A stretch of DNA of 64,000 nucleotides from Nymphaea colorata (lineage: Eukaryota > Streptophyta > Magnoliopsida > Nymphaeales > Nymphaeaceae), in assembly GCF_008831285.2 (NCBI RefSeq), contig NC_045148.1:7011001-7075000 (forward strand), written 5' to 3'. Under the pieces are notes generated by a model. The model made no database searches. It was not told where the DNA came from and saw only the letters and a program-made list of their open reading frames with translations. The position numbers and the translations under genes are program-made. Positions 4,865 through 22,099 of the stretch are shown here, in pieces. Numbering within the stretch: position 1 is the stretch's first letter; the number at the start of each line of letters is the position of its first letter.

Positions 4865-5359
4865 TCAAGCCACCTTAATTTCGATGGTCTTGGGCTTCTT
4901 GGGCTCAGGAGGCGGCAATTTCTGCACCGCCACGGTGAGCACGCCGTCCCGATACTCGGCAGAGATGGCATCGACATTGGCGTTCTTGGGCAGGTTAAAT
5001 TTCCTCATGAGCTTTCCCACCCTGCGTTCCATCCTCAAGTACTTCACCTCCGCCTCCTCCTTTTCCTTCTCCTTGTGTTGTTCCTCTTGCTCCTCCCTCT
5101 TCCTCTCGCCGCTGATGCTGAGGACATTCCCCTCCTCGATCTGGACATTGATTTCGCCGGACTTGACCCCGGGCATGTCGAGGACGAAGACGTAGGAGGA
5201 AGGATACTCCTTGATGTCGGCAGGCGTGGAGGCCATGGCCTTGGTGTCGCGCACGTAGCTGCGGGTGGGCGCGTTCAGCAGCTTCTCCATCTCTTCCGGG
5301 ACGCTCAGCAGCTGGTTGAGCGTCGATACAAGCGGTTGCTCCGCCATCAGCACATCCAT
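4865..5359 (-). CDS. Class II cytosolic small heat-shock protein, gene 2 (164 aa)
   Basis: Intact intronless paralogue of gene 1. It begins with Met-Asp-Val-Leu-Met and carries the conserved [19 protein letters not shown]-terminal arm, the alpha-crystallin domain opening with [28 protein letters not shown] (Leu where the others have Phe), and the class II tail [16 protein letters not shown] with an I-E-I anchor. The charged loop after GERKREE ([14 protein letters not shown]) is three residues longer than in gene 1 and about ten longer than in typical class II proteins. It differs from its siblings by DGVLTVAV in place of DGVLTVTV. An intact frame and an intact promoter with a four-unit HSE argue for a working heat-inducible gene. 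Confidence 0.96.
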
Positions 5360-5518: not shown

Positions 5519-5574
5519 AGGGAAGCGGAGAAGCGAGATGGAAGGTGGGAGAAAGAACCAGAATCCGCCCGGTG

Positions 5575-5594
5575 TTTCCCGAAGCTTCCCGGAG
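5575..5594 (-). promoter_or_regulatory. Four-unit heat-shock element of sHSP gene 2
   Basis: TTC (5576-5578), GAA (5581-5583), TTC (5586-5588) and GGA (5591-5593) at exact 5-bp spacing: three perfect units and one near-perfect unit, centred about 65 bp upstream of the TATA box. This is the best HSE in the window and the expected binding site for plant heat-shock factors. Confidence 0.88.
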
Positions 5595-5629
5595 CAAAAG
5601 AATCCTAACTACAATTCCGCGGGCCTTGC

Positions 5630-6600
5630 TCGCCCTATAAATCGGCGTCCGAATCTGAAATTCGGTTTTATAATTTAAATCTGATTTGAATCCAAATTTT
5701 ACATTCACGTATAAATCCAACTCAAAATTTTGAATTCAATCCAACCGATTTCCAAAAGGTGAGAGAAGGATATTTATTTAAAATTAAATACGATACAAAT
5801 CCATTCAAATATTTATATATACTAAATAAAATACGATACAAATCCATTCAAATATTTATATATACCCAAATCTAAGTCTGATTATGAATTTAATACAATT
5901 TTTTCATTACATATTTAATTTTTTTCCATATACCATTTTTTTGAAACGATTCAATCAATATCCAATCCAAATCTGACATATTGACATCTCTAATCACCAT
6001 TAAATTATATTATGTCACCATGTTTTATCAAAACTTGCTCTTTTGATATCAACCCAATAAAAAAACAAATCCATGGGCCTGTGTTGACCTTATATTGTGG
6101 ACTGTTTGTGAACGAACTGTAGGGCAACATCCACCATCCATGCACACACTACAAGGTGTAATATAATAGTATCTACAATTCATATGCTGAAAGAAATCTG
6201 CGAAAAAGTTTTTGCCCCACCAATAGATATATAGTTCTAATTTCAATGAAGGGCTATTAAATCCTTGGAGGAGAATACTTACCACATATTTCAAGGAAAG
6301 GACTAACAACAGAAAGCAAGTCCCTCTGTCTAACCAAGATCGATCAACACATGAGCACTAACAATAGACTGTAAAATTTTCCCATGAAAATTCTTTTTAA
6401 TGCTTCATCAAAGCATAAAATCCTTGATTTGAACTGAAACACAAAAAGCTTGCCACTAAAATATTTTAATGACAATTACTAGAAATTTCTATTTATAGAA
6501 ATAACATTTGGCAGAAAGCAAATGCAGCCTTAAAAAAATATAATTACCTGGCTGTAACTGTTTATTTCAAATTAGCTAATTGAAAATTATTGTATGTTTC
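5630..6600. repeat. Degenerate AT-rich repeat (TCCAAATC / AATCTGA family) and plain intergenic DNA
   Basis: From 5640 to about 5990 the sequence repeats words such as AAATCCAATC, ATCTGA and TTCAAATATTTATATATAC (an almost exact short tandem copy at about 5795-5865). This family recurs at 22500-23420 and 33060-33430. From about 6000 to 6600 no structure is recognised. Confidence 0.5.
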
Positions 6601-6620
6601 CATAGTAATTATTGTATTTG

Positions 6621-6890
6621 CTCCTCGTAGCTGGTCAAATTGGTAGAGTGGCGAAAGGCCAATGGTTATCCTGATTCATATATCTGCTACTCCTCCTCTG
6701 CAAAGCAAAGGGTGGGTACGCGATGCTTAGTTGATGGATGTGGTACTCCCCACCTAGGTCCTGAGGCCAATGGTTAGTTTGATTCCTATAACTGCTAATC
6801 TTCTTATGCAGAGCAAATGGCGGGCACGCGATGCTTATTTGATGGGTACGAGATGCTTAGTTGATGGATGTCTCACTCTTGACTCAAGTC
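6621..6890. repeat. SINE-like segment with a duplicated unit of about 108 bp
   Basis: TAGCTGGTCAAATTGG at 6628-6643 resembles the A box of a tRNA-derived SINE, and a degenerate B-box-like stretch follows at about 6672-6685. The unit beginning AGGCCAATGGTTA is present at 6656 and again at 6764, both times ending in words like CGCGATGCTTA and TTGATGG. There is no poly-A tail or clear target-site duplication, so the SINE reading is tentative. Confidence 0.4.
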
Positions 6891-7511
6891 CGAAGCAACC
6901 TTCAACCAAGTTCATGGTAAAAAAGAAAGTAGCTTTGGGTCAACGACAAGAGAAAAGAGGGAAGGCTTTCGACCACTTTCGGTATCTTCTCCTCACCTCT
7001 AATGTGGGCTCTAATATTGTTAAGCTCAAAAACACAAACTTGATTAGATAGCGTGCCTCCAAGCTACACATGATACAAAAAAATACGATTTTTAGCTTAC
7101 AATCTTCGTATATATCTTAAGAATAGGGGATCAATAAACTTAACTGATAACAATTTAAAAGGGACCCAAAAGACAATAAAGGTTCTAGATATCATATCAA
7201 GAATTCTTCCATCTAAACATCTTGAAGATTTTCACGTTGAAAATCTCTTCTCAATCCATGCCATAACACTAAGAAAACTTAGCATGGACAGCCTTGTGCG
7301 ACCAGAATGGTCCACTTTAAAGTAACAAAAGATCATCATATCATTAGCATATTCATAAAAGTTGCCGCCACAGGTAGAAAGGATAATTAAACCAGCAATC
7401 AAGCGGCATGCTACACCGCTTAGCACATGTCTATGAGAAATCTACATTTACATTTGGAAAAGATAATCCAAGACAAAGTTACCTTGGATAATTCCATGAG
7501 AAGTGCTCTAC
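6891..7511. other. Intergenic DNA, no gene seen
   Basis: No open frame looks real. The 93-codon plus frame at 6770-7051 overlaps the duplicated SINE-like unit and resembles no known protein. Confidence 0.45.
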
Positions 7512-9276
7512 CATTCACTGAAACTACAGAAGAATCACATAAAACCCAAACTTTTTGCACTCATTGAATATGAAAGCCCAAATATTAAAGAGTATTTTGG
7601 ATGAAATGACCAATTAGAATGATCCTAAGGCTTAAGAGACGAATTGCCGTTTATACTACCTTATGATGAGAACCTGACTTAGAATGGACTACCTCATAGG
7701 CCAGCAAGAAGCATTCTAATTGAATTGAATGGTCTTGTAGGAATACCCCTTGTAATTTAGATAGCAGTCTACTAATACTTTGCATTATGCAATTCACGGT
7801 AATGTGATCTATAAATTCATAAGGGCAATTACAATAGAGATTTTAATGCTCCTCAGTCTTCCATTGGAAAAAAAATATTTCAGATGCATTCACATTGGCC
7901 TTACTGACAATAGCACAGTAATTCTTGAGAAGTAATTTATATTAGAGCTAGGGCAACTCCATAGCACAGTAATTCTTGAGAAGTAATTTATATTAGAGCT
8001 AGGGAAACTCCTCTTTATGTGCCTTCTTTACTACTCAACTCATTTAATTTTTTGAAATCAAAGCTGCGAAGAATCTATTTCCATGTTCGCTAACCCAAGG
8101 CCCACAATCAACTGAAAAAGATGACAACTAAGAAAATTATCTTTAGAGAAAGAACAACATTACTACAAAAAGACAATACGCTAAGCAAAGATTCTATCAT
8201 CGTTTGATTGTTAATGCCATCTTTGCATATTCTATAAATGGCATATTCCTCATCTTCCGAGGAGCATAGCTATGAAAAGGCATAGGCATCTGCCTTTCAA
8301 CCACAGAACTCATAATTTTTGCTCCTCACAAATTTTCAAAGAGAGATACACTAAGCGAAGGTTTATTCTAGAAAAAAGAGATCCTAAAAAAAGAGATCCT
8401 TCCACTTGATTTGTATAGATAATCCTCAACATGAGGCTGCCCTAGAAAATTTTCTCCAAATTGAATTAAAAATTTGGTTACAAGGTGGCATTCTAAAAGA
8501 ATATGAGAACGATTGTCCGGAAAAAAAATATCCGTATGAAAACTACATGTCCATTACCTGAGCTAAAAGACTGTCAGAAAAAAACCAAAAAAAAAAAAAT
8601 TGTCATATAATCAAAGATGAGTAAGAACATTCAGGAACCTATTACTACAAATATATCCACTCGCATGCAATTCCTTCGATTTGCAAATAATGACCATTCT
8701 TCACCTCTTCAATTGATATTGCAAGTATTGAAAGAGATGCAAGCTCAAAGACAAGGAGCTCTACCAATCTTATCCTAAGGACAGGAAACTGCATTCAGAT
8801 CTCCAGCGACATTATGGGGTCTTTGGCAGCATCAACAGCCCAATGAAGAGTTGAAAACGGAGAACTCTAGTATGCAAAAGAATTGTAACCCAATAGCCAC
8901 CATCTTCAATATAACAAATTAAGGAGACACAAAAATTGCTTTTCAAGCACTAAAAATTTCTTCTATCGAACAAATCAAGCAATGAAAGCTAGTATGAGGC
9001 TTATGATCATTATCAAAATGTTGAAAATTATGCTTGGTTCGACATCCCGAAGCCTCTCTCACTTTCCATCCAATTATCCTCACGAGTAGAAAAAAAATAA
9101 AAAGCAGTACCATTCAAGCCATGTTCTTTATTGCTGCAACTCTTTCAAACACCCAAGGTTTCTTGTTACCTTGTTGTTCCACTTCGCCTGTATGAAGCAA
9201 GGGTCACCATGTTTGTCGAAAAAAAAAGTTCAGAAACACTAGAAGACAATCAATGGAAGCATAGCTATAGTATATA
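7512..9276. repeat. Duplicated sHSP downstream block, copy A, without its gene
   Basis: This block aligns throughout with 14054-15628, the DNA downstream of sHSP gene 3. Both start CATTCAC and share long runs such as CATAAAACCCAAACTTTTTG, and both run into the conserved 3' flank (GAAGCAAGGG(T/C)C) up to ATAGTATATA. In copy B the sHSP coding region follows about 200 bp later. Here homology stops at 9276 and hAT transposase sequence begins. It contains its own 51-bp tandem duplication (7910-7960, 7961-8011). Confidence 0.88.
7910..8011. repeat. 51-bp tandem duplication inside block A
   Basis: Units start ATAGCACAGTAATTC at 7910 and 7961 and are almost identical. Block B has only one copy of this unit (about 14408-14455), so the duplication happened after the blocks separated. 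Confidence 0.88.
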
Positions 9277-10702
9277 GTTTTAACAAATGTAATTGCTAAG
9301 CATCTTGCAGAGTGGGAGATTAAAAAAAAAATATCCATTACAGTTGACAACGCTTCATGACAACGCTTCATCAAACAATGTTCTTGTTAGAAAATTAAAA
9401 GAGAACATGGAAAAAAGTGGCATCAGCTTGTATTATGGAGGTAAATTTTTTCATGTGCGATGTTGTGCACATATTTTGAATATGATGGTACAAGATGGGT
9501 TGAGTGCCATTAAAGATTAAATCATTAGCATTAGAGATGCAGTAAAATATATCAAAGTTTCACCTTCAAGACTCCATGGTTTTGCAGCTGCAGCTAGAGA
9601 GTTGGAAATTTCAAAGACAAAGAAGTTAGTGTTAGATGTACCAACTCGTTGGAATTCAACATATTTTATGTTGAAAACAACTCTTGTATATAAAAATGTT
9701 TTTGCAAGATATAGCATGGAAGACCCAGGCTTGGTATGATTGCTTGGACCTGAGGATTACGAAAAAACAGCAGTGATATGTGATTTTCTTCAAGTTTTAT
9801 ATGACGTGTCCACTTTAATTTTTGGGTCATCTTATGCAACAGCGAACTTGTATTTTCTTGAAATTTGGAGAGTTCAAGAAATATTGCGGGAAAAGGTTGA
9901 AAATGAAGGTGGGTTTATGAAGGCAATGACAGTGAAAATGAAGGAGAAATTTGACAAATATTGAAAATCATGTAACTTGTTAATGATTATTGCAACCATA
10001 TTAGATCCACGCGTGAAACTCACATTATCTGAGTTTGTCTTCACAAGAATTTACCAGTCAAGAGAAGAAAGGGAAGAACAAATGCAAATGATAAAACATT
10101 CTTTACAAGATGTTTATGAAAGTTACATTCAAAGAAATGAAGTGGATGTCAATATTTCTACTGCATCAACTCATTCCTCTAGTATTCGAGGTCGAGAGAG
10201 TCAAGACACACCACGTGGTGGAAGAAAGCTATTTTTTAAATTCTTAGGTAAAGTTGAGAATGTTGCTTTTCAGGTCACCAAATCTGAGATAGACACATAT
10301 TTGAAGGACATATTGATTAAGCATGATGATAATGGTGATGAAGATTCTTTCAGTATTTTGCAATGGTGGAAGGATAAGGAATCTAAGTATCAAATTCTTT
10401 CACAAATAGCACGTGATCTGTTGTCAATTCCAATAACTTCTGTTGCTTCAGAAAAAGCATTTAGTGCAGGAGGTCGAATTGTTAATGATAGTCATAGTTC
10501 ATTGATGCCAAAAACAGTTGAAGCTTTGGTTTGTTTGGGTAATTGGGTAAAGAATGATGGTGATCCAATGCATGAATTTTTAACAAAAGTATGTTTTGAA
10601 AAAATTGTATTCATTAAATATTTTGTGAATAATTTGTTAATTGACTATATATATTTCTTTAAGGTTGAGGATGAATCAAGTGAATATATATCATTAGAAT
10701 GA
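9277..10702 (+). pseudogene. hAT-family transposase (RICESLEEPER-type), truncated and broken
   Basis: The translation matches plant BED zinc-finger / RICESLEEPER-like hAT transposases. It contains VDNAS-SNN, GGKFFHVRCCAHILNMMVQD, LDVPTRWNSTYFML and LLMIIATILDPRVKL, then the C-terminal dimerisation region with SVASEKAFSAGGRIVNDSHS and LVCLGNW. The N-terminal BED finger and first catalytic part are missing. A 13-bp tandem duplication (9345-9357, 9358-9370) shifts the frame. In-frame stops then follow at 9518-9520, 9737-9739 and 9962-9964; the last replaces an expected Trp. A short intron (about 10589-10663) can be removed near the end to give VEDESSEYISLE and a stop. It cannot make an active enzyme. 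Terminal inverted repeats were not identified. Confidence 0.92.
9345..9370 (+). repeat. 13-bp tandem duplication causing a frameshift in the hAT pseudogene
   Basis: TGACAACGCTTCA occurs twice in direct succession. Reading with a single copy gives Val-Asp-Asn-Ala-Ser-Ser-Asn-Asn, the expected conserved transposase stretch. The second copy adds 13 bases and creates a TGA. Confidence 0.92.
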
Positions 10703-11220
10703 TTGAAGTTGTCTCTTGGTAATGCTTGTTTTTTGTCGTTGTTTTGTTTTCTTCTTTTTCTTGATCTAATGTGATTCTAGTGTCTGTTTCAGTTGCCTCT
10801 TGCAGTTTTCTGTTTTGATGTCAAGTGTTCATGACTCATGCTTGTGTGAAGAGCTTCTATATGAAGTGAGTATGTGAATTCGAGTTAGTGATATCGTTTC
10901 TTAACTTTCCTTTAACTCTTAAGAGCAGTATTTTAAATTTGGCAATAATGTGACATAGCCTTTTTTTTCTATGTTATTCAGGAGGTGGCTGTTATTGTGG
11001 CTAGAGGAAGGGATGATTCATTTTCAAGTTTTGGTTTCTTGAGAGTTGAGAGGAGAGAGGGTTCTCAAAACATTTGTTTACATGTTTTTACATACTTATG
11101 AACAAGCTATTTATGTAGAAGTCCCATTCATTTGGAATGAATTTGATGGACTAGTTTTCTGCACTGTCATTTTATTTGTTTATGATATACTGTATGAAAC
11201 TTTGTAACTTGTAAGTTCAG
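10703..11220. other. T-rich non-coding stretch between the hAT and RPN1 fragments
   Basis: Probably the 3' untranslated DNA of the hAT element followed by unassigned sequence. A short exon-like piece near 10981-11030 begins after an AG but could not be matched to any protein. Confidence 0.4.
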
Positions 11221-11225
11221 AAGTC

Positions 11226-11311
11226 CATCAGGGATCTACTGTTCTTGGAATCGCTATGGTTGTGAACTTGCGGTGGCTGAGGAATTGGGACTTGAGATGG
11301 CAATTCGCTCA
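11226..11311 (+). pseudogene. RPN1: Fragment of 26S proteasome regulatory subunit RPN1 (PSMD2)
   Basis: Two short reading segments match the conserved region of plant RPN1, the large scaffold subunit of the proteasome base. HQGSTVLGIAMV is encoded at 11226-11261, and AEELGLEMAIRS at 11276-11311 in another frame. In intact RPN1 only two residues separate these motifs; here there are 14 nt instead of 6, so an 8-bp insertion breaks the frame. The following text (about 11445-11514) starts with a plausible AG acceptor and an AVPL-like reading that might be the next RPN1 part, but it diverges too much to be sure. This is a gene fragment, not a gene. Confidence 0.72.
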
Positions 11312-12179
11312 TATGTGAAAGGTAGCCAACTATCATACCTTTTATAGTTTATGTTTCTTTCTATATTTCTTTAAAGAAAGTGTAGTTTGTATTATTAGTT
11401 TTAAATTCTGGATATTTTCCATATTCTTCACTTTAATGCAGTTCCCCTTATTGCAGCTCGTTGCAATGACAGCAACCATGCTACAGCTGTTGACCATGCC
11501 AGCTATTCTGCTAATGTGAGTACAGGGTGTAATAGGATTTAGTATAATTTATCGCTTTCCTTGTATTATATGATCTAATGGCCTTAGATCTAGTTGAGTT
11601 GAGTCACTGGGTTACACAAATCAGCATCTGACTTCATGTCTACCTGGTCCTTGTTGGTGAATGCGTAGACGCAGTTGGTGAAAAACACAAGTTTGTGTCA
11701 AAAAATAGATTCACTTGGTTAAGACTTGATCTCTGAAGGCTTAGTCACCTTAGTGTGCTATATTATTTTCATGAAACAAGGAACTTTGGGCATACTGGAA
11801 ATGCTAGCTAATTGTATTTGCTTATTCAGAACTGAGTCAAAAATTGTCCTTGAGAAAATAATTGGTGGATGTGTTCATTGTTGCATTTCTTGCCTGTTTA
11901 ATCAAGTGATTCAGTACTGAGATCTATGTTGTCTGATATTCATTAAAAATAGGTTTATAACATATTGTCATAATAGATTCATTACTTGTGTTTAAAAATC
12001 TGAATGATCAAGGCTTCCTTTTTCTTTCCCCTTTTTTGTCTGACTTCTCTTAAGTTATTTTGCATCATTAATTGAATGTTCTTTGTTGGTGCTTGGGATG
12101 GTAAATTCTTAATAAGCCTTATGAGGGACTAAGTTCTTGAGAAGCCTTATGGGGGACTAAGTTCAGGCTTTGTTCTTGT
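11312..12179. other. Non-coding DNA between the RPN1 and GDI fragments
   Basis: An exon-like piece at about 11445-11514 may be further RPN1 debris. A GACTAAGTTC-containing unit is repeated at about 12118-12165. Nothing else is recognised. Confidence 0.35.
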
Positions 12180-13575
12180 TTGCTTTATGCAAAATCTTTG
12201 GCACGCTTTCAAGGGGGTTCACCTTACATTTATCCTCTGTATGGACTGGGAGAGCTTCCCAGGTTTCTCTCAATTCTTAACTTGCAAAATTTTAAGTTTC
12301 TTCTCTTAATGCTTAGCCATATTAAATTAACAAGATATGTAGGCATTTGCTCGTCTAAGTGCTGCGTATGGGGGAACCTACATGCTGAACAAGCCTGAGT
12401 GCAAGGTACTCGATCTTTCTTCCGCTAATGTTGAGACGTTGAAGTTTGGTTTAAACTGACATTTGATAATCATAAGAACCTAGAGGACCAACTCCCTGAA
12501 CTTTGCCTTGTCAGAATTATAAGCAGAGATGCAACAGTCCTTGTCATTTTTTTGTTTTCTCTTTAATGTATATGCTGTGTTGATATATTTCTTATGTATT
12601 CTTGTTGTTCAGATTTTGTGTTGATTCCTTCTCTGGAATTTTGATTTTCTTTTCATATTTAGCAAAGATCTTTTGTTATGTATAAGAATGTTCATGAAAT
12701 AGGTAAAATTCGTTAGCTAGTCATGGACCTTTCAAAAACTAACTAACATATGGTACCTTTTGCAGGTGGAATTTGATGAAAGTGGAAATGCTTTTGGCGT
12801 GACATCTGAAGGTGAAACTGCTAAGTGCAAGAAAGTTGTATGCGATCCATCTTATTTACCAAACAAGGTAAACATTTTCCAGCATCCAGTCTCAGCTTTT
12901 TGCTTCAAGTTGTTTTTTTCTTTTTCATGACCGACTTTTAATTACCATTTTTTGAATTTAACAGGTTAAAAGGGTTGGGAAGGTTGCCCGGGCTATTTGT
13001 ATAATGAATCATCTCATTCCAAATACAAATGATTCACACTCAGTACAAGTTATTCTGCCTCAGAAACAACTTGAACGCAAATCAGACATGTAGGCATTTA
13101 ACTTTTGAAGTGCTTGTGACACCAGTTGCAGTCATTATGTGTTTTCAGCAATATTTATTTCGGCTGCATGTCCAAGTTTTTTACTTGCTTCATTGCTTGT
13201 CTACATTTTTAGCTGGAGTTGCTGTTCCTCAGCAATACTCCACCATTAGATTCTCAAGTTCGGTTTGTGGATCACTGGCCTAACCATAAGCAATGAAAAT
13301 TTTGTAACTCTATTGTCCATCAGTAAAAGCATTTTCATCAAGTGCAAGGTCAACACTGATCACACACTCTAGGGCCAAGGAGATGGTTAAACTGTAAATG
13401 GTTGCATGGTAGAGTCGGAAAACTTTCCCTTAAGAGTGTTAGTTCCATTATTTCACCAATCACTGAAGATGACTTTGATATTCATGCGTAGAACTTATTC
13501 TTATGTTATGTTGGTTACAGGTATCTCTTCTGTTGCTCCTACTCTCAAAACATAGCACCAAAAGGAAAATATATA
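12180..13575 (+). pseudogene. GDI: Rab GDP-dissociation inhibitor (GDI) pseudogene, internal exons only
   Basis: GDI extracts GDP-bound Rab GTPases from membranes. Five exon remnants keep their splice sites: 12180-12262 (LYAKSLARFQGGSPYIYPLY, then GLGELP), 12343-12405 (AFARLSAAYGGTYMLNKPEC), 12766-12867 (VEFDESGNAFGVTSEGETAK to YLPNK), 12965-13089 (VKRVGKVARAICIMN to RKSD) and 13521 to about 13575 (YLFCCSYSQNIAPKGK). Together they cover only the middle third of the usual protein of about 445 aa; both ends are absent. One base is missing at the end of the first exon (CTTCCCAG in place of the expected CCNCAG), which breaks the join to the next exon, and the last exon runs into unrelated sequence with no donor. 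Because introns are retained, this is a DNA-level copy and not a processed pseudogene. Confidence 0.9.
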
Positions 13576-13619
13576 ATGTTCATAAGATCTGACTCCCAAC
13601 CCATATAATGTTTAATTTT

Positions 13620-14053
13620 GTCAACTCAAATAGGACCTATTATTATTATTATTTTTTTAAGTTGAAGTTTTTTCAGGAAATCATAGGCAAAAAATAATTA
13701 TGAGGATAAACATTAATGGGACATTTGATTTCCTTGGTAACGAGTTAATCGAGCCTTGATCGACCTCGATAAGGATGAGTACCAAACGAGTTTATTGAGC
13801 CTTAATTGAGCTCCATAAGGATGAGTATCAAACGAGTTTATCGAGCTCGAGCTCAACAAGTAAGAATGAGTAGTTAAACGAGCTTAATCGAGTCGAGCTC
13901 GAGCTCGACAAGTGACTATCGAGTCGAGCTCGAGCCAGGATAGTCGAGCTATATTCGATCTCGAGCCGAGTCGAGCTCGTGTCTTACTTAGTCGAGCGGA
14001 GTTCGAGCTGACCGAGCTCGGGCTCGACTCGGCTCGTGTTCTGCCCTATATAA
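13620..14053. repeat. GAGCTCGA-rich degenerate repeat
   Basis: From about 13740 the sequence is a dense series of TCGAGCTCGAG, GAGTCGAGCTC and AACGAG(T/C)TTA words, many self-complementary, with two short direct copies of AAGGATGAGTA(C/T)CAAACGAG (about 13771 and 13818). It ends abruptly where block B begins. Related, more decayed stretches occur at 30620-31010, 36255-36445 and 62030-62410. Confidence 0.75.
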
Positions 14054-15628
14054 CATTCACCAAAACTACATAAGAATCACATAAAACCCAAACTTTTTGC
14101 ACTCATTGAATATGAAAGCCCACATATTAGGAGTATTTTAGATGAAATGACCAATTAGAATTATCCTAAGGCTTGTAATGGACTACCTGATAGGCCAGCA
14201 AGAAGCATTTTAATTAAATTGAATGGTCTTGTAAATGCCCCTTATAGTTTAGATAGCAGCCTACTAATAACATGCATTATGCAATTCACGGTAATGTGAT
14301 CTATAAATTCATAAGGGCTATTGCATAGAGATTTTGCTAATGCTCCTCGTAGTCTTCCATTTGAAAAAAGTATTTCAAATGCATTCACATTGCCCTTATT
14401 GGCAATACCATAGTAATTCTTGAAAAGTAATTCACATTAGAGCTAGGGCAACTCCCCTTTCGACACCTTTAATTTTTTGAAATCAAAGCTGCGAAGAATC
14501 TATTTCTGTATTCACTCAAGGCCCACAATCAACTGAAAAAGATGACAACTAAGAAAATTACCTTTAGAAAAAGAACAACATTACTACAAGAAGATAATAT
14601 GCTAAGCTAAAATTCTATCATCTTTTGATTATTAATGCCATCTTTGCAGATTCCATAAATGACATATTCCTCATCTTACGAGAAGCATAGCTATGAAAGG
14701 CATAGGCGTCTTTCAACCACGGAACTCGTAATTTTGATGGTCACAGTTTTTCAAGGAGAGATATAATAAGCGAAGATTTATTAGAGAAAAAAAGAGATCC
14801 TACCACTTTCTATAGATAATTCTTAACATTAGGCTGCCCCAGAAAATTTTCTCCAAATTGAATTAAAAATTTGGTTACAAGGTGGGATTTTTAAATAATA
14901 TGTGTATGATTGTCCGGAAAAACTATGAAAATTACCTGAGCTGAAAGACTGTCAGAAAGAAACAAAAAAAAAGATTGTCATATAATCAAAGATGAGGAAG
15001 AACATTCAAGAAACTATTACCATCAGATACATCCACTCGTATGCAATTCATGTGATTTGCAACAGATGATCATTCTTCACCTCTTCAAATGATATTGCAA
15101 TTATTGAAAGAGATGCAAGCTCAAAGAGAAGGAGCTCTACCAATCTTATCCTAAGGACAGAAAACTGCATTCAGATCTCCAACGACAGACAGCTATGGGG
15201 TCTTTGCCAGCATCAACAACCCAATGAACATTTGAGAACGGAGAACTCTAGTAAGTAAAAGAATTGTAACCCAATAGCCACCATCTTCAATATAACAAAT
15301 TAAGGAGATGCAAAAATTGCTTGTCAATCACCTAATAGTTTCGTCTATCGAAGAAATTATGCTCATGATCATTATCAAAATGCTGAAAATTATGCTGGGT
15401 TTGACATCCCAAAGCCCTCTCACTTTCCATCCAATTATCCTCGTGAGTAGAAAAAAAATAAAGAAGCAGTACCATTCAAGCCATGTTCTTTGTTTCTGCA
15501 ACTGTTTCAAAGACCCAAGGTTTCTTGTTGTTCCACTTCGCCTGTATGAAGCAAGGGCCGCCATGTTTGTCGAAAGAAATATTTACAAACACTAGAAGAC
15601 AATCAATGGAAGCATAGCCATAGTATAT
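14054..15628. repeat. Duplicated sHSP downstream block, copy B (next to gene 3)
   Basis: Aligns with 7512-9276 apart from small insertions and deletions. It has no believable open frame, and its right end is the conserved 3' flank of sHSP gene 3. It shows what the DNA beyond 9276 should have looked like before disruption. Confidence 0.88.
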
Positions 15629-15824
15629 ACAGTAGGAAACTCGCTTACATTCAGAGGGTTTCGTTACAGATCGACTCCCATATCAAGTCACCTCAAGTCC
15701 TGATGGAAACGAAAAAGATGACAGAAGGAGATACAGTAGAGGCATGACACGAACAACCAACACAACTAGTTTATCAAGGCCAGAAAACAGAGCAGAAACA
15801 GAAACCACAGAGAAGCACTATTTC

Positions 15825-16319
15825 TCAAGCCACCTTGACCTCGATGGTCTTGGGTTTCTTGGGCTCAGGACGCGGCACCTTCTGCACCGTCACGGTGAGC
15901 ACGCCGTCTCGATACTCAGCCGAAATGGCATCAACGTTGGCGTTCTTGGGCAGGTTGAATTTCCTCATGAACTTCCCCACCCTCCGCTCCATCCTCAAGT
16001 ACTTCACCTCCGCCTCATCCTTCTCCTTCTCCTTGTGTTTTTGCTGTTGCTCCTCCCTCTTCCTCTCGCCGCTGATGCTGAGAACATTCCCCTCCTCGAT
16101 CTGGACCCTGATGTCGCCGGATTTGAGCCCCGGCATGTCGAGGACGAAGACATAGGAGGAAGGGTACTCCTTGACGTCGGCAGGCGTGGAGGCCATCGCC
16201 TTGGTGTCGCGCACGTAGCTGCGGGTGGGCGCATTCAGCAGCTTCTCCATCTCCTCCGGCACGCTCATCAGCTGGTTGAGCGTCGACAGCAGCGGCTGCT
16301 CCACCATCACCACATCCAT
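15825..16319 (-). CDS. Class II cytosolic small heat-shock protein, gene 3 (164 aa)
   Basis: Intact intronless chaperone gene of the same family as genes 1, 2 and 4. The frame is open for a further 40 codons upstream, but the Met-Asp-Val-Val-Met start at 16319 is chosen because the paralogues start there and the extension is 5' UTR sequence with no sHSP character. The alpha-crystallin domain opens [20 protein letters not shown] and contains [20 protein letters not shown]. The charged loop ([17 protein letters not shown]) is long. The C-terminal motif reads [17 protein letters not shown], so the first prolines of the usual PPPEPKKP are altered. The promoter has a TATA box and a perfect three-unit HSE, so heat induction is expected. 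Confidence 0.96.
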
Positions 16320-16453
16320 TTTCCTACAGCTTTTGCTTTTCCCCTTCTTGGTGATGCGGAATTGGTTTCTGCGTCTGCAAATGGAGATTAGAGAGCGCGC
16401 TCGCGAATCTTGGGGTTTGATCGAGCGATTGTTGACCACAAGTGCATCGGCCC

Positions 16454-16461
16454 AATTTATA
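16454..16461 (-). promoter_or_regulatory. TATA box of sHSP gene 3
   Basis: The minus strand reads TATAAATT about 140 bp upstream of the chosen start codon, identical to the boxes of genes 1 and 4. Confidence 0.78.
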
Positions 16462-16518
16462 AGGGAATCGGAGAGGTTGCAGAGAGAACTAGAAGGTGCT
16501 CATGGAAGGAGACGGTGA

Positions 16519-16533
16519 TTTCCCGAAGCTTCT
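16519..16533 (-). promoter_or_regulatory. Three-unit heat-shock element of sHSP gene 3
   Basis: TTC (16520-16522), GAA (16525-16527), TTC (16530-16532) at exact spacing, built around GAAGCTTC, about 60 bp upstream of the TATA box. The layout matches genes 2 and 4. Confidence 0.87.
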
Positions 16534-16714
16534 TTCTTGCATCTCGAGATTTTTGGAGCATTCCGTATTGCTTGGTCGCAGCAAAAGAATCTTCTCGAGG
16601 GTTTGCTTGGCCTTTGGACCGCCTTCTTCTCCAACTTTGCCTCATCGTGTGCATCCTGGACAGAACTATATTTGCAGAGAACCGCTGAACAGGTGTAACT
16701 GCACTGTTTGATTT

Positions 16715-17620
16715 ACAATTTGAATTCATTCCGCTACTTTTAGATTTAATAAATTAAGCTCAGATCCGTAGTTCTCCAATTTGAGTTCAATCTGATCTGC
16801 TATGTTTATAATTGATAAACCAAGCTAAGATCCAAATATGCATTTGGAATAAGTTTGCAACTCGACTTCCCGGAATTTGGACCAATATTTATTTTGTTGA
16901 TTTTATTCACACAAATAAGCTAAAATGAGATATAAAAACAATGCCACGTTTTCCATCGTTTTCTTGTCATGAAATACCATGTAACGTAGATGCTGTCTCA
17001 AGGTTCAACATTTTGAGTGATCGGTTTCAGAATTCAGATTTGGCTTTGGATAAAGAATTTCAGTTGTTCTAGATATAATAGATCCATAGTAACGGGCAAC
17101 ATTTTGAGACTGATTTTTCCAGCCTTTATATTTTTTTCTCACTCTCTCACCTACTCTTTTGTTCATTGCTTTCTTCTTTTATATTCTTTATATTTTTTCA
17201 CAATTATTCTCTTTTTTATACTACTGTTAGTAGATCATAGAAAAGGAACGTTACTTAAAAAAAACCACTCTCAAATTGGGACTAGATTTAATAAATTCCT
17301 TCTTATGCTTATCACCTTTTATTAAGAAAAGGATAAGCATAGATCTCTTTATGCGAAAATAAGGCTGTTTAAGTGCAGTAAATGCAGTAAAAGACTGACA
17401 GATTTCTAATGTACTCAAAAAAGCGTTGTGGCATAATGTATGGTGCAACCAAACAAAACCGAGGTTTCCATCACTTCCTCATATATGAGATCCAAGGTTT
17501 TAGTTCACTGAGGATCTCATATCACAATACATGAAGTCACATAAATTCTTATGGAACCTCCAAATTAAATCCAATTTATATGAGGATCCTGTTTTTCTTT
17601 TTTTTTTTTGTATATATGGA
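16715..17620. other. AT-rich upstream and intergenic DNA
   Basis: The first about 140 bp carry the TAATAAATTAAGC / AGATCCAAATATGCATTT words also seen upstream of gene 1. The remainder is T-rich with no gene signal. Confidence 0.45.
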
Positions 17621-17624
17621 ATCT

Positions 17625-17895
17625 AGGCTTGGGCATTGCCCGATAAGAGTCGGGCCTGGCAGGCCCATGCCTGAAACCCAAGCGCAGGCCCGGCCTGGTT
17701 AAAATAAATTTTTTAAATATAAAATATTTTTTTAAAAATAAAATATATATTATTAATAAAATGAAAATAATTTCGAAAACTTTCTGGTCCAATCGAACCA
17801 TATCGGGCAGACTTGTGCTGCCTTTTTCGGACCCGAACCAGGGCCCGATCGAGCCGGGTACAAGGTACCCATCGGGCTAGCAGCCCACCTCTACT
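17625..17895. repeat. GGGCCCG / CGGGCC-rich repeat flanking an AT-rich core
   Basis: CCGATAAGAGTCGGGCC and GGCCCGGCCTGG words on the left and CCCGAACCAGGGCCCGATCG words on the right flank about 100 bp of AT-rich DNA. The GC-rich arms are partly inverted relative to each other, so the segment may fold back. It is a common kind of degenerate plant repeat; the family is not assigned. Confidence 0.5.
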
Positions 17896-18960
17896 AGAAT
17901 CTAGTCCTTGTTTACTTGCGGGTTCCATCTAAAAGGGATTTCACATTCGAGGCACACAAGAATCGGGAAGTAGCATAAAAACTAAGGTGTCTCTTAATAT
18001 CAATGTATGTATAACAATATGGGCATAATGTTTCTGTCTATTACCAAACAAACCAAACAAGAGAAAAAAGAGATGGACATAATGTTTCTCTGTCTATGAC
18101 CAAACAAGAGAAAGAAAGAGAGCTGGACCGAAGCTATGCAGATGATTTTATAAAAACATTAATATATATGTAAACTCTGTATGTATTTGAAAACATTTTA
18201 TGAAAGTGAATTAATGAAATTAATTATCTATTTCTGATGAGATCTGATATACAATTACTTTTTTGAATATCAGTGCGTTTAGCTTGTATAATAACCTTTT
18301 GTGTATGAAAAAATCTTATTTAGTTTAAAAGAGAGTCAAAGTTGATTTGTTGTGATTCATTAAGTCGTCACCTAAGAACTGATTACTAAAAAGTAATATG
18401 ATATCATGCCAACGTTGAAATTAACCACCATTAATTCTTCTTGGAAATACCATGGCACTTTAACTCAGAGTGCAAGAAACTATCCAGCAATGCAAAATCC
18501 TCTATTTTTAAGGGTGAAACCGAATCATATTTAGAGACCCAACTGTTTGAATTTAAAAAAAAAAATTAGGATTGAAAACATGGAGTTTGGAAAGTTAATC
18601 ACAAACTATTTGCATGACAGATGGATAGAGAAAGAGTGAGTTGACATGACTTGCTTAGAAATTTTGATGCTAAGAGCATACCAATCCAGTGCCCGACCCA
18701 ATGCTCAGCCTTATGTCAAAGAAAGAAAACATTCATTTCAACATTTCGGAAGATAATCCTCTCACAAGATGTTATGAATTTAGGGTTTTGAATAAGTTTG
18801 GGGCAATAGTCCTTTCTTTTTGAGCTTGATTTATCAATTAAGAGTTCTTATTTCAATCTGAATTCCATATTATTTAGAAATATCATATCATTCATGCATA
18901 AATATATGTTTTGCTTTGTTCTACTTTCAGTAATGTGCTTCATGGTGTACATTTTATGTA
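17896..18960. other. Intergenic DNA, no gene seen
   Basis: No supported coding sequence or repeat structure beyond a short imperfect duplication of GACCAAACAAGAGAAA-type words at about 18040-18115. Confidence 0.45.
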
Positions 18961-18969
18961 GTTTGCTTT

Positions 18970-19415
18970 CGGGGTGGAGTCAAGGTAGGGCCCGGGCCCT
19001 AGCTCTACTCATTTTTTTTTTTAAATTTCACTTGTTCTATATAAAAAAATTTGAAAAATGATATTTCTGTTCTAATAAAAATTTCGAAACTTTTATGGAG
19101 CCCGCCTCATGAAAATTTTTCCGGCGCCACCCCTGGTTTCATTCACTTCAAAATGCACATAATAGAGGAAGATAAAGCTAAATAAAACTGATGTAGCATA
19201 TGACCCGAGCTGACCACGGTACAAAAGAGTAGTTTGGAGCGGCTGGTGTTTAGAGGGAAGCCTTGCTAAAACTTTTTTCAGGGGGGCTTATTGTGGTTTT
19301 AGAAACTTTCACAGGGGCCAAACTAACTTTTTTGGAAACATTACATGTAGAGTTTTAAAATCTAGGGGGCTCATGGCCCCTCCTAGTCTCTCCCTGGCTC
19401 CGCCACCGGTATAAA
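18970..19415. repeat. Transposon remnant with GGAGCC / GGCTCCGCCACC ends
   Basis: Begins near GGGGTGGAGTCAAGG and ends at CTGGCTCCGCCACCGG, with GGGGGGCTTATT, AGGGGCC and GGGGGCTCATGG phrases inside. The same type of sequence recurs at 34468-34640, and short traces occur near 52720-52740 and 58770-58890. The superfamily cannot be named from this alone. Confidence 0.55.
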
Positions 19416-19803
19416 GACATATACATCAGGCCATATACCGGGCTTAAAACTATTTATCCAAATATCCAAGCAAGCCCTTTGGAAGGCTAGATCTATCATT
19501 ATTCTTGGTGCATTCCGGTTTTCGATTTAGCTCGGCGATGCTCGTGGGGTTAGAGGAGAAATCTTCTTCTCCACTGCGTCAACTCTCATTGGTGAATAAA
19601 TTATGGTAAAACATGGCTACTTGTTAATTTGTTGGTGAATACATGTTTATATTCTTATATATTTGTCTGGAAATGCCTATAACTGAATCATTTTGTGCAT
19701 CTTGTTACCTATTGGATCACTTAAGTCTGTGCAGTTGCTTGTCCTTTGCATCAATGCTGTAATTTTTTACTGACAAAATTGGTTTTGGTTGTTACAAGCA
19801 CAA

Positions 19804-19845
19804 GTATGAAGTATGTGGCAGCATGTATGAAGTATGTGGCAGCAT
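19804..19845. repeat. Exact 21-bp tandem duplication
   Basis: The unit starts GTATGAAGTATGTGGC and occurs at 19804-19824 and 19825-19845 without mismatches. Confidence 0.93.
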
Positions 19846-20104
19846 GATAAATATCGTTCGATTAGTGATCGATGGCATACATTTGAAATGCGTGTAACAT
19901 ACAACTCAACGTTCTAGCCGATTTAGTATATGCTGGAATTTTATGTGATTCACATATGCTGTTTGAGTACTTGTTTATTATTGTTTTTGCTTTCATGTCA
20001 TTTGCTTGCTATTCATTTTGTTTTGTCTTCCTTTTTCTATTTTCAACCATTCTTTTTGTCATCCAAAGATTTCGATTGCCGTGTTTGCAGGCAAATGCTC
20101 TCTT

Positions 20105-21610: not shown

Positions 21611-22099
21611 TCAAGCCACCTTGACCTCGATGGCCTTGGGTTTCTTGGGCTCAGGAGGCGGCAACTTCTGCACCGTTACGGTGAGCACGCCGTCTCGGTA
21701 CTCGGCCGAGATGGCATCGGCGTTGGCGTTCTTGGGCAGGTTGAATTTCCTCATGAACTTCCCCACCCTGCGCTCCATCCTCAAGTACTTCACCTCCGCC
21801 TCCTCCTTCTCCTTGTGTTGTTGCTGTTGCTCCTCCCCCTTCCTCTCGCCGCTGATGCTGAGGACATTCCCCTCCTCGATCTGGACATTGATTTCTCCGG
21901 ACTTGAGCCCCGGCATGTCGAGGACGAAGACGTAGGAGGAAGGGTACTCCTTGATGTCGGCAGGCGTGGAGGCCATGGCCTTGGTGTCGCGCACGTAGCT
22001 GCGGGTGGGCACGTTCAGCAGCTTCTCCATCTCGTCCGGGACGCTCAGCAGCTGGTTGAGTGTCGACATCAGCGGCTGCTCCACCATCAGCAGATCCAT
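21611..22099 (-). CDS. Class II cytosolic small heat-shock protein, gene 4 (162 aa)
   Basis: Intact intronless sHSP. An open frame extends 97 codons further upstream, but the Met-Asp-Leu-Leu-Met start at 22099 matches the paralogues and the longer version would run through the TATA box and HSE, so it cannot be coding. Order of parts: N-terminal arm with [18 protein letters not shown], alpha-crystallin domain from [32 protein letters not shown], a charged loop that reads [17 protein letters not shown] (Gly where the others have Arg), [27 protein letters not shown] and the class II tail [16 protein letters not shown] with an I-E-V anchor. Role as for gene 1: cytosolic holdase during heat stress. 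Confidence 0.96.

Follow-up and report, generated by a model that had tools for sequence, protein, structure and literature searches.

Tandem gene arrays undergo birth and death. With eight HSP20 places in about 41 kb and a duplication followed by a loss, the sHSP locus described here resembles such arrays, and differs from them in that the join is readable inside a transposon, whereas the loss of a whole gene is something that we infer. Repair of staggered breaks that leaves duplications at insertions, a model related to the single repair event considered below, was reportedly put forward by Vaughn and Bennetzen in 2014. In the maize work on reversed-ends transposition (PMC3744419), the target site stays intact at the first copy of a duplication, and a transposon end plus target opens the second copy. 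Our locus is like that Ac duplication in having an unfilled target at copy 1 and a transposon end with target at copy 2; it differs in its truncated element, in the lack of a nearby partner and in a duplication that is apparently older than the element. In Pack-hAT (Pack-TYPE) elements, as described in PMC8903248, hAT sequences enclose a fragment captured from a host gene, as they do in the hAT studied here, which differs from them by its transposase remnants and its lost 5′ end.

The DNA analyzed, hereafter the window, is a stretch of 64,000 nucleotides from Nymphaea colorata (C11:7011001-7075000), and the genome searched comprised 407.8 Mb in 783 contigs. A profile search with PF00011 gave 53 matches genome-wide. 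An sHSP cluster of ~41 kb, at C11:6991988-7032958, holds eight PF00011 places, four of them inside the window. An earlier interpretation made from the letters of the window (the sequence-only reading) had described a four-gene cluster from which a fifth gene was lost or displaced; its count is right for the window, but the cluster has eight places, so a lost gene would be the ninth. All four window genes are on the minus strand (gene 1, 1220-1705; gene 2, 4865-5359; gene 3, 15825-16319; gene 4, 21611-22099), each carries an HSP20/alpha-crystallin domain (PF00011), and we take them to be class II. Gene 3 encodes 164 aa, and its 3′ region is the duplicated segment discussed below. Divergence among the four coding regions is merely 0.064-0.111, and the 280-bp 3′ flanks of the same genes differ by K2P distances of 0.28-0.59. 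To the left of the window, ~6995192-6996371 and ~7004005-7005177 form an inverted pair of ~1.2 kb with 78% identity, each half covering one sHSP place; the cluster therefore also expanded via inverted duplication. Among the entries listed by a full-text literature search none named the locus, which does not in itself prove its absence from print.

Two blocks of related DNA flank a transposon within the cluster. Block A (7507-9276), the left copy, and block B (14049-15629), the right copy, which runs unbroken into gene 3, were delimited by aligning one to the other; counting the presumed target site of the hAT, they measure 1770 bp and 1581 bp, respectively. BLASTN aligned 7509-9276 with 14051-15629 at 1698 bits, and none of 20 shuffles of A in 2-base units scored above 34.6 bits when compared with the window. 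At 1420 of 1568 aligned bases the blocks are identical (148 sites differ; K2P 0.101, bootstrap 0.086-0.119). The sequence-only reading had called A the same DNA as the block below gene 3, which is borne out in the sense of an old, diverged copy, since the two differ by 9.4% substitutions plus indels. It had also placed the end of the match at 9276, about 200 bp short of the coding region: the match does end at 9276, equivalent to 15629, and the gene 3 stop codon lies 195 bp further on. The final 90 bp of A are 91% identical to the gene 3 3′ flank, and 71-89 bp within them match genes 1, 2 and 4 at 76-81%. The last ~88 bp of A are sHSP 3′ flank, and the duplicated unit extended at least ~88 bp into it. 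A conserved flank had been claimed below every gene of the cluster; the flank piece present in A was found below the four window genes but, at a threshold of E 1e-8 over 90 bp, not at the other four cluster places. Judged by the flanks (K2P 0.101 for A/B vs 0.28-0.59), the array predates the A/B duplication, a comparison that depends on the flanks only, because coding divergence is 0.064-0.111.

In a genome search with A, in which 4/4 candidates were scored, we recovered A and B themselves together with three partial matches, two of them on C5 (71% and 79%) and the third on C3 (69%), and no third full-length copy. The nearest HSP20 place is ~150 kb from the C5 piece and megabases from the C3 piece. 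A dispersed repeat found away from sHSP genes had been named as the result that would tell against the sequence-only reading. We rejected block A as such a repeat, there being just three partial matches at two loci beyond A and B, and since A is not a high-copy repeat, that objection fails. The middle of the duplicated block (window 8053-8935 and its counterpart in B) has partial relatives at ~70%; the two loci concerned, on C5 and C3, resemble one another outside the shared piece too, and the open reading frames of the first (L031), inspected by eye, suggested no gene. Within A, a 51-bp unit occurs twice (7910-8011; 98% alike) and once in B, so it was either doubled after the split or lost from B. 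The DNA left of A (5557-7508) was used as a further query, with 40 of 475 candidates scored. It matched dispersed sequence at ~5647-6015 and two loci within 6244-6517 (85% and 79%); among the candidates scored nothing matched right of 6517, and hence no second copy of this neighbour was seen.

The DNA between the blocks (9277-14048, plus strand) is a 5′-truncated hAT that carries a Rab GDI gene fragment. Its transposase, of which the later part is present in a broken frame, matches PF05699 (E 6.4e-27) and PF14372, and the hAT dimerisation domain places the element in the hAT superfamily. A genome search with 9277-14050, in which 40 of 1218 first-look candidates were scored, returned many matches that begin at the very first base of the query. 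Eight relatives were extracted with their flanks (L035-L042). Left of the point equivalent to 9277, each of the seven others shares at least 800 bp with L035, and 9277 is therefore internal to the element. On the right, matches of the relatives to the window stop at 14048 in five of eight cases and, in one case each, at 14049 and 14056, the match of L042 falling short of the hAT end; these BLAST ends mark the 3′ terminus, which together with the 3′ subterminal repeats occupies 13724-14048 (plus strand). A perfect 8-bp target-site duplication with a TAGGG-type left end was found in 3/7 relatives examined (5680, 8798 and 7815 bp long), and the pattern used did not find a left end in the other four. 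Measured against the 5680-bp relative, the window hAT has its 3′ end and is missing ~2.7 kb at its 5′ end. No further member of the same family was found across 94 kb.

The Rab GDI cargo (11910-13574, plus strand) consists of exons with introns and was delimited by matches to C13 and C3 and by PF00996. From 12147 to 13572 it matches C13 at 96% (K2P 0.030, 0.021-0.040), and from 11910 it matches C3 at 92%. Three exon pieces match PF00996, one of them also matching GDI chains in PDB; the exons sit between hAT internal sequence and the hAT 3′ end, and the hAT 5′ end is missing. The C13 piece extends further right than the cargo and so was not copied from the window hAT. No hAT ends were found around the C13 and C3 pieces by the patterns used. 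Because cargo could enter a hAT after it has landed, the age of the cargo cannot by itself date the insertion.

The boundaries of the blocks differ in kind. The left boundary of B is the transposon end at 14048, followed directly by a presumed 8-bp target site, TATAACAT (14049-14056), which is filled. At the left edge of A, an unfilled counterpart, TCTACCAT (7507-7514), is attached to its own left neighbour, and 6/8 bases of the two sites are identical. Since TCTACCAT adjoins that neighbour directly, with no element between, block A is best read as the unfilled version of the hAT site. The other edge of A, at 9276/9277, joins the block to the interior of the hAT transposase gene; hAT sequence had been noted within a few bases of this point and in fact begins at 9277. 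Comparison with B and the eight hAT relatives shows 2 bp (TA) common to both sides of the join and no filler. With the hAT terminus at 14048 and the cut inside the transposase at 9277, the edge of A is a deletion or repair join, consistent with end joining that followed a deletion or with repair. An edge between host and transposon DNA can mislead, the edge here being a join and the insertion point lying 4.8 kb off.

The observed duplication, hAT terminus at B, unfilled site at A, cut through the transposase gene and 2-bp overlap are best explained, with a probability that we put at about 0.65, by a duplication, then insertion of the hAT, then a deletion. A segment including at least the gene 3 3′ flank would have been duplicated, presumably in tandem. 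The hAT, which now holds the Rab GDI fragment, would later have inserted at the lower edge of the present block B. A deletion would then have joined the left copy, 195 bp below its would-be stop codon, to the hAT interior through end joining at a 2-bp microhomology, taking the remainder of the left copy, the right-copy DNA left of B and the 5′ portion of the element. Because unfilled and filled transposon sites lie side by side, a single locus suffices to put duplication, insertion and deletion in order, which makes it a well-preserved example of change in a tandem stress-gene array; the events are ordinary genome evolution, unusually legible at this sHSP locus.

The order itself is suggested by divergence. 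Had the hAT already been in place at the A/B split, its branch should be at least half of the A/B distance (0.051). Three-point estimates of the hAT backbone branch from ten pairs of five relatives ranged from 0.031 (minimum) through 0.037 (mean) to 0.048 (maximum), and half of A/B exceeded the branch in 300, 294 and 198 of 300 bootstraps, respectively; taking the minimum of the ten estimates (300/300) favours a younger hAT, and with the maximum just 198/300 support the order. In a maximum-likelihood tree of 15 copies the hAT branch is 0.034. A/B differ by 0.041 transversions per site, the hAT and L038 by 0.019. The hAT looks younger than the A/B split, and as its branch is shorter than half of A/B, the order duplication, hAT, deletion is preferred. 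A closer hAT relative among the unscored candidates would make the branch still shorter. Even smaller is the distance of the GDI cargo from its C13 relative (K2P 0.030), although cargo may have been acquired after landing. Against this order, the rates of a transposon and of an AT-rich flank may differ; against the model, 6/8 rather than 8/8 target-site bases agree.

Three other histories were weighed. A single repair event at a break at the hAT below gene 3 would need no fifth gene at any time: one side would have been copied from a hAT-free homologue, giving A, and the other from a hAT-bearing sister, both ends then being joined inside the hAT. This one step would yield the duplication together with the empty site, the occupied site and the 2-bp join. 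On such a history, however, A and B should not predate the hAT, barring alleles that were several per cent apart beforehand, and A/B divergence exceeds that between the hAT and its closest sampled relative in 300/300 bootstraps; we consider it unlikely. Reversed-ends (alternative) transposition of hAT termini could also have made the tandem duplication directly and set the hAT between the copies, its 5′ part being lost later. It would put an unfilled site at A and a transposon end with target at the start of B, as is found with agreement at 6/8 bases. It would also put the endpoints at transposon termini, whereas 9276/9277 is inside the transposase gene, and on that far side of the junction the hAT has been cut short; the 94 kb contain no family partner and the order of divergence opposes it, and we judge this origin very unlikely. 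The sequence-only reading had foreign DNA entering at 9276 and removing or displacing a fifth gene. The match of A does end where the hAT begins, but 9277 is transposase interior, the terminus of the element is at 14048 against B, and searches with A and with 15630-20000 (40 of 1213 candidates scored for the latter) found no displaced intact gene, so that entry at the edge of A is hardly tenable.

On the preferred reading, duplication followed by hAT insertion and deletion, DNA beyond A would have been lost. Whole genes were duplicated repeatedly in the cluster, so the unit would sooner have included a gene than lacked one, and given this model we rate the loss of a complete sHSP gene with that DNA at slightly better than even odds. 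A fifth sHSP gene is plausible and unproven. Of the claim that such a gene was lost or displaced, it stands that A duplicates the gene 3 3′ region, that the transposon junction is illegitimate and that A is not a high-copy dispersed repeat, but the searches given next found neither a remnant nor a displaced intact copy. The PF00011 genome search gave no HSP20 match between A and B. A comparison of 9277-14048 with the 5′ side of gene 3 and with genes 1, 2 and 4 gave no clear remnant, the strongest being a 16-base match to the gene 1 region at E 0.007 and the rest having E of at least 0.06. The search that had been proposed, for an sHSP gene elsewhere with an A-type 3′ flank, revealed no displaced intact gene in the genome with A as the query. 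The same was true of 15630-20000, which spans gene 3 with its 5′ side and what is left of its 3′ flank (40 scored of 1213 candidates), and of the left neighbour of A (40 scored of 475).

The search with 15630-20000 brought up DNA of another kind. PIF/Harbinger elements are defined by a 3-bp TWA target-site duplication and GGGGGCGTTTGAT-type ends. Among the 40 candidates scored of 1213, the closest pieces resemble gene 3 (window 16091-16609 and 16720-16844) at 89-94% identity and lie at six genome places, one each on C3 and C5, two adjacent on C8 and two on C7. They comprise the promoter and leader of gene 3 together with its first half: the entire 16091-16609 is present in three fragments, one starts from 16222, and two hold the promoter side only (from ~16437 or 16447). 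In one locus (L051) the matching stretches are 605-902 and 1403-2063. At L052 and L053 the fragment lies within elements of ~1.3 kb that have GGGGCGTTTGAT-type ends and target duplications at both ends (TAA/TAA and TTA/TTA, respectively; 2/5 loci), and at the other 3/5 loci the right ends alone were matched. We assume these elements to be PIF/Harbinger-like. A perfect heat-shock element, TTCCCGAAGCTTC, is present in 6/6 fragments and is shared by genes 2 and 3; at gene 4 there are two different perfect heat-shock trimers, and the pattern used found none within 600 bp of gene 1. In L051, L052 and L053 the sHSP start opens a frame of 82 codons, L054 has an 89-codon frame that soon departs from sHSP sequence, and the sHSP start was not found in L055.

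In a tree, the fragments group with gene 3, whose own branch is 0.033. Of 407-409 non-coding sites, 27-29 distinguish the cargo on C3, C5 and C8 from gene 3; set against the A/B differences (148/1568), this gives Fisher p values of 0.08 and 0.17, and gene 3 and a lost sister are therefore not separated as donors. As judged from the gene 3 branch in the tree, the split between cargo and gene 3 appears somewhat younger than half of A/B, and the comparison leans towards gene 3 as donor. It is distinctly unlikely, in our estimation, that the promoter and first half of the lost gene survive at the six places as cargo of a PIF/Harbinger-like element; if they do, a transposon would have spread a heat-shock promoter from a gene since deleted at its own locus. 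A by-product of this analysis, small elements resembling transposons that bring a heat-shock promoter to new sites, may matter more than the history of the locus itself.

Two further repeats were seen in and beside the window. A short dispersed repeat at 18773-18970 has many genome matches at 75-84%. Directly left of the window, C11:7009539-7010598 is a local array with self-matches every 113 bp; steps of 226 bp match better, and the array resembles a satellite with a doubled unit.
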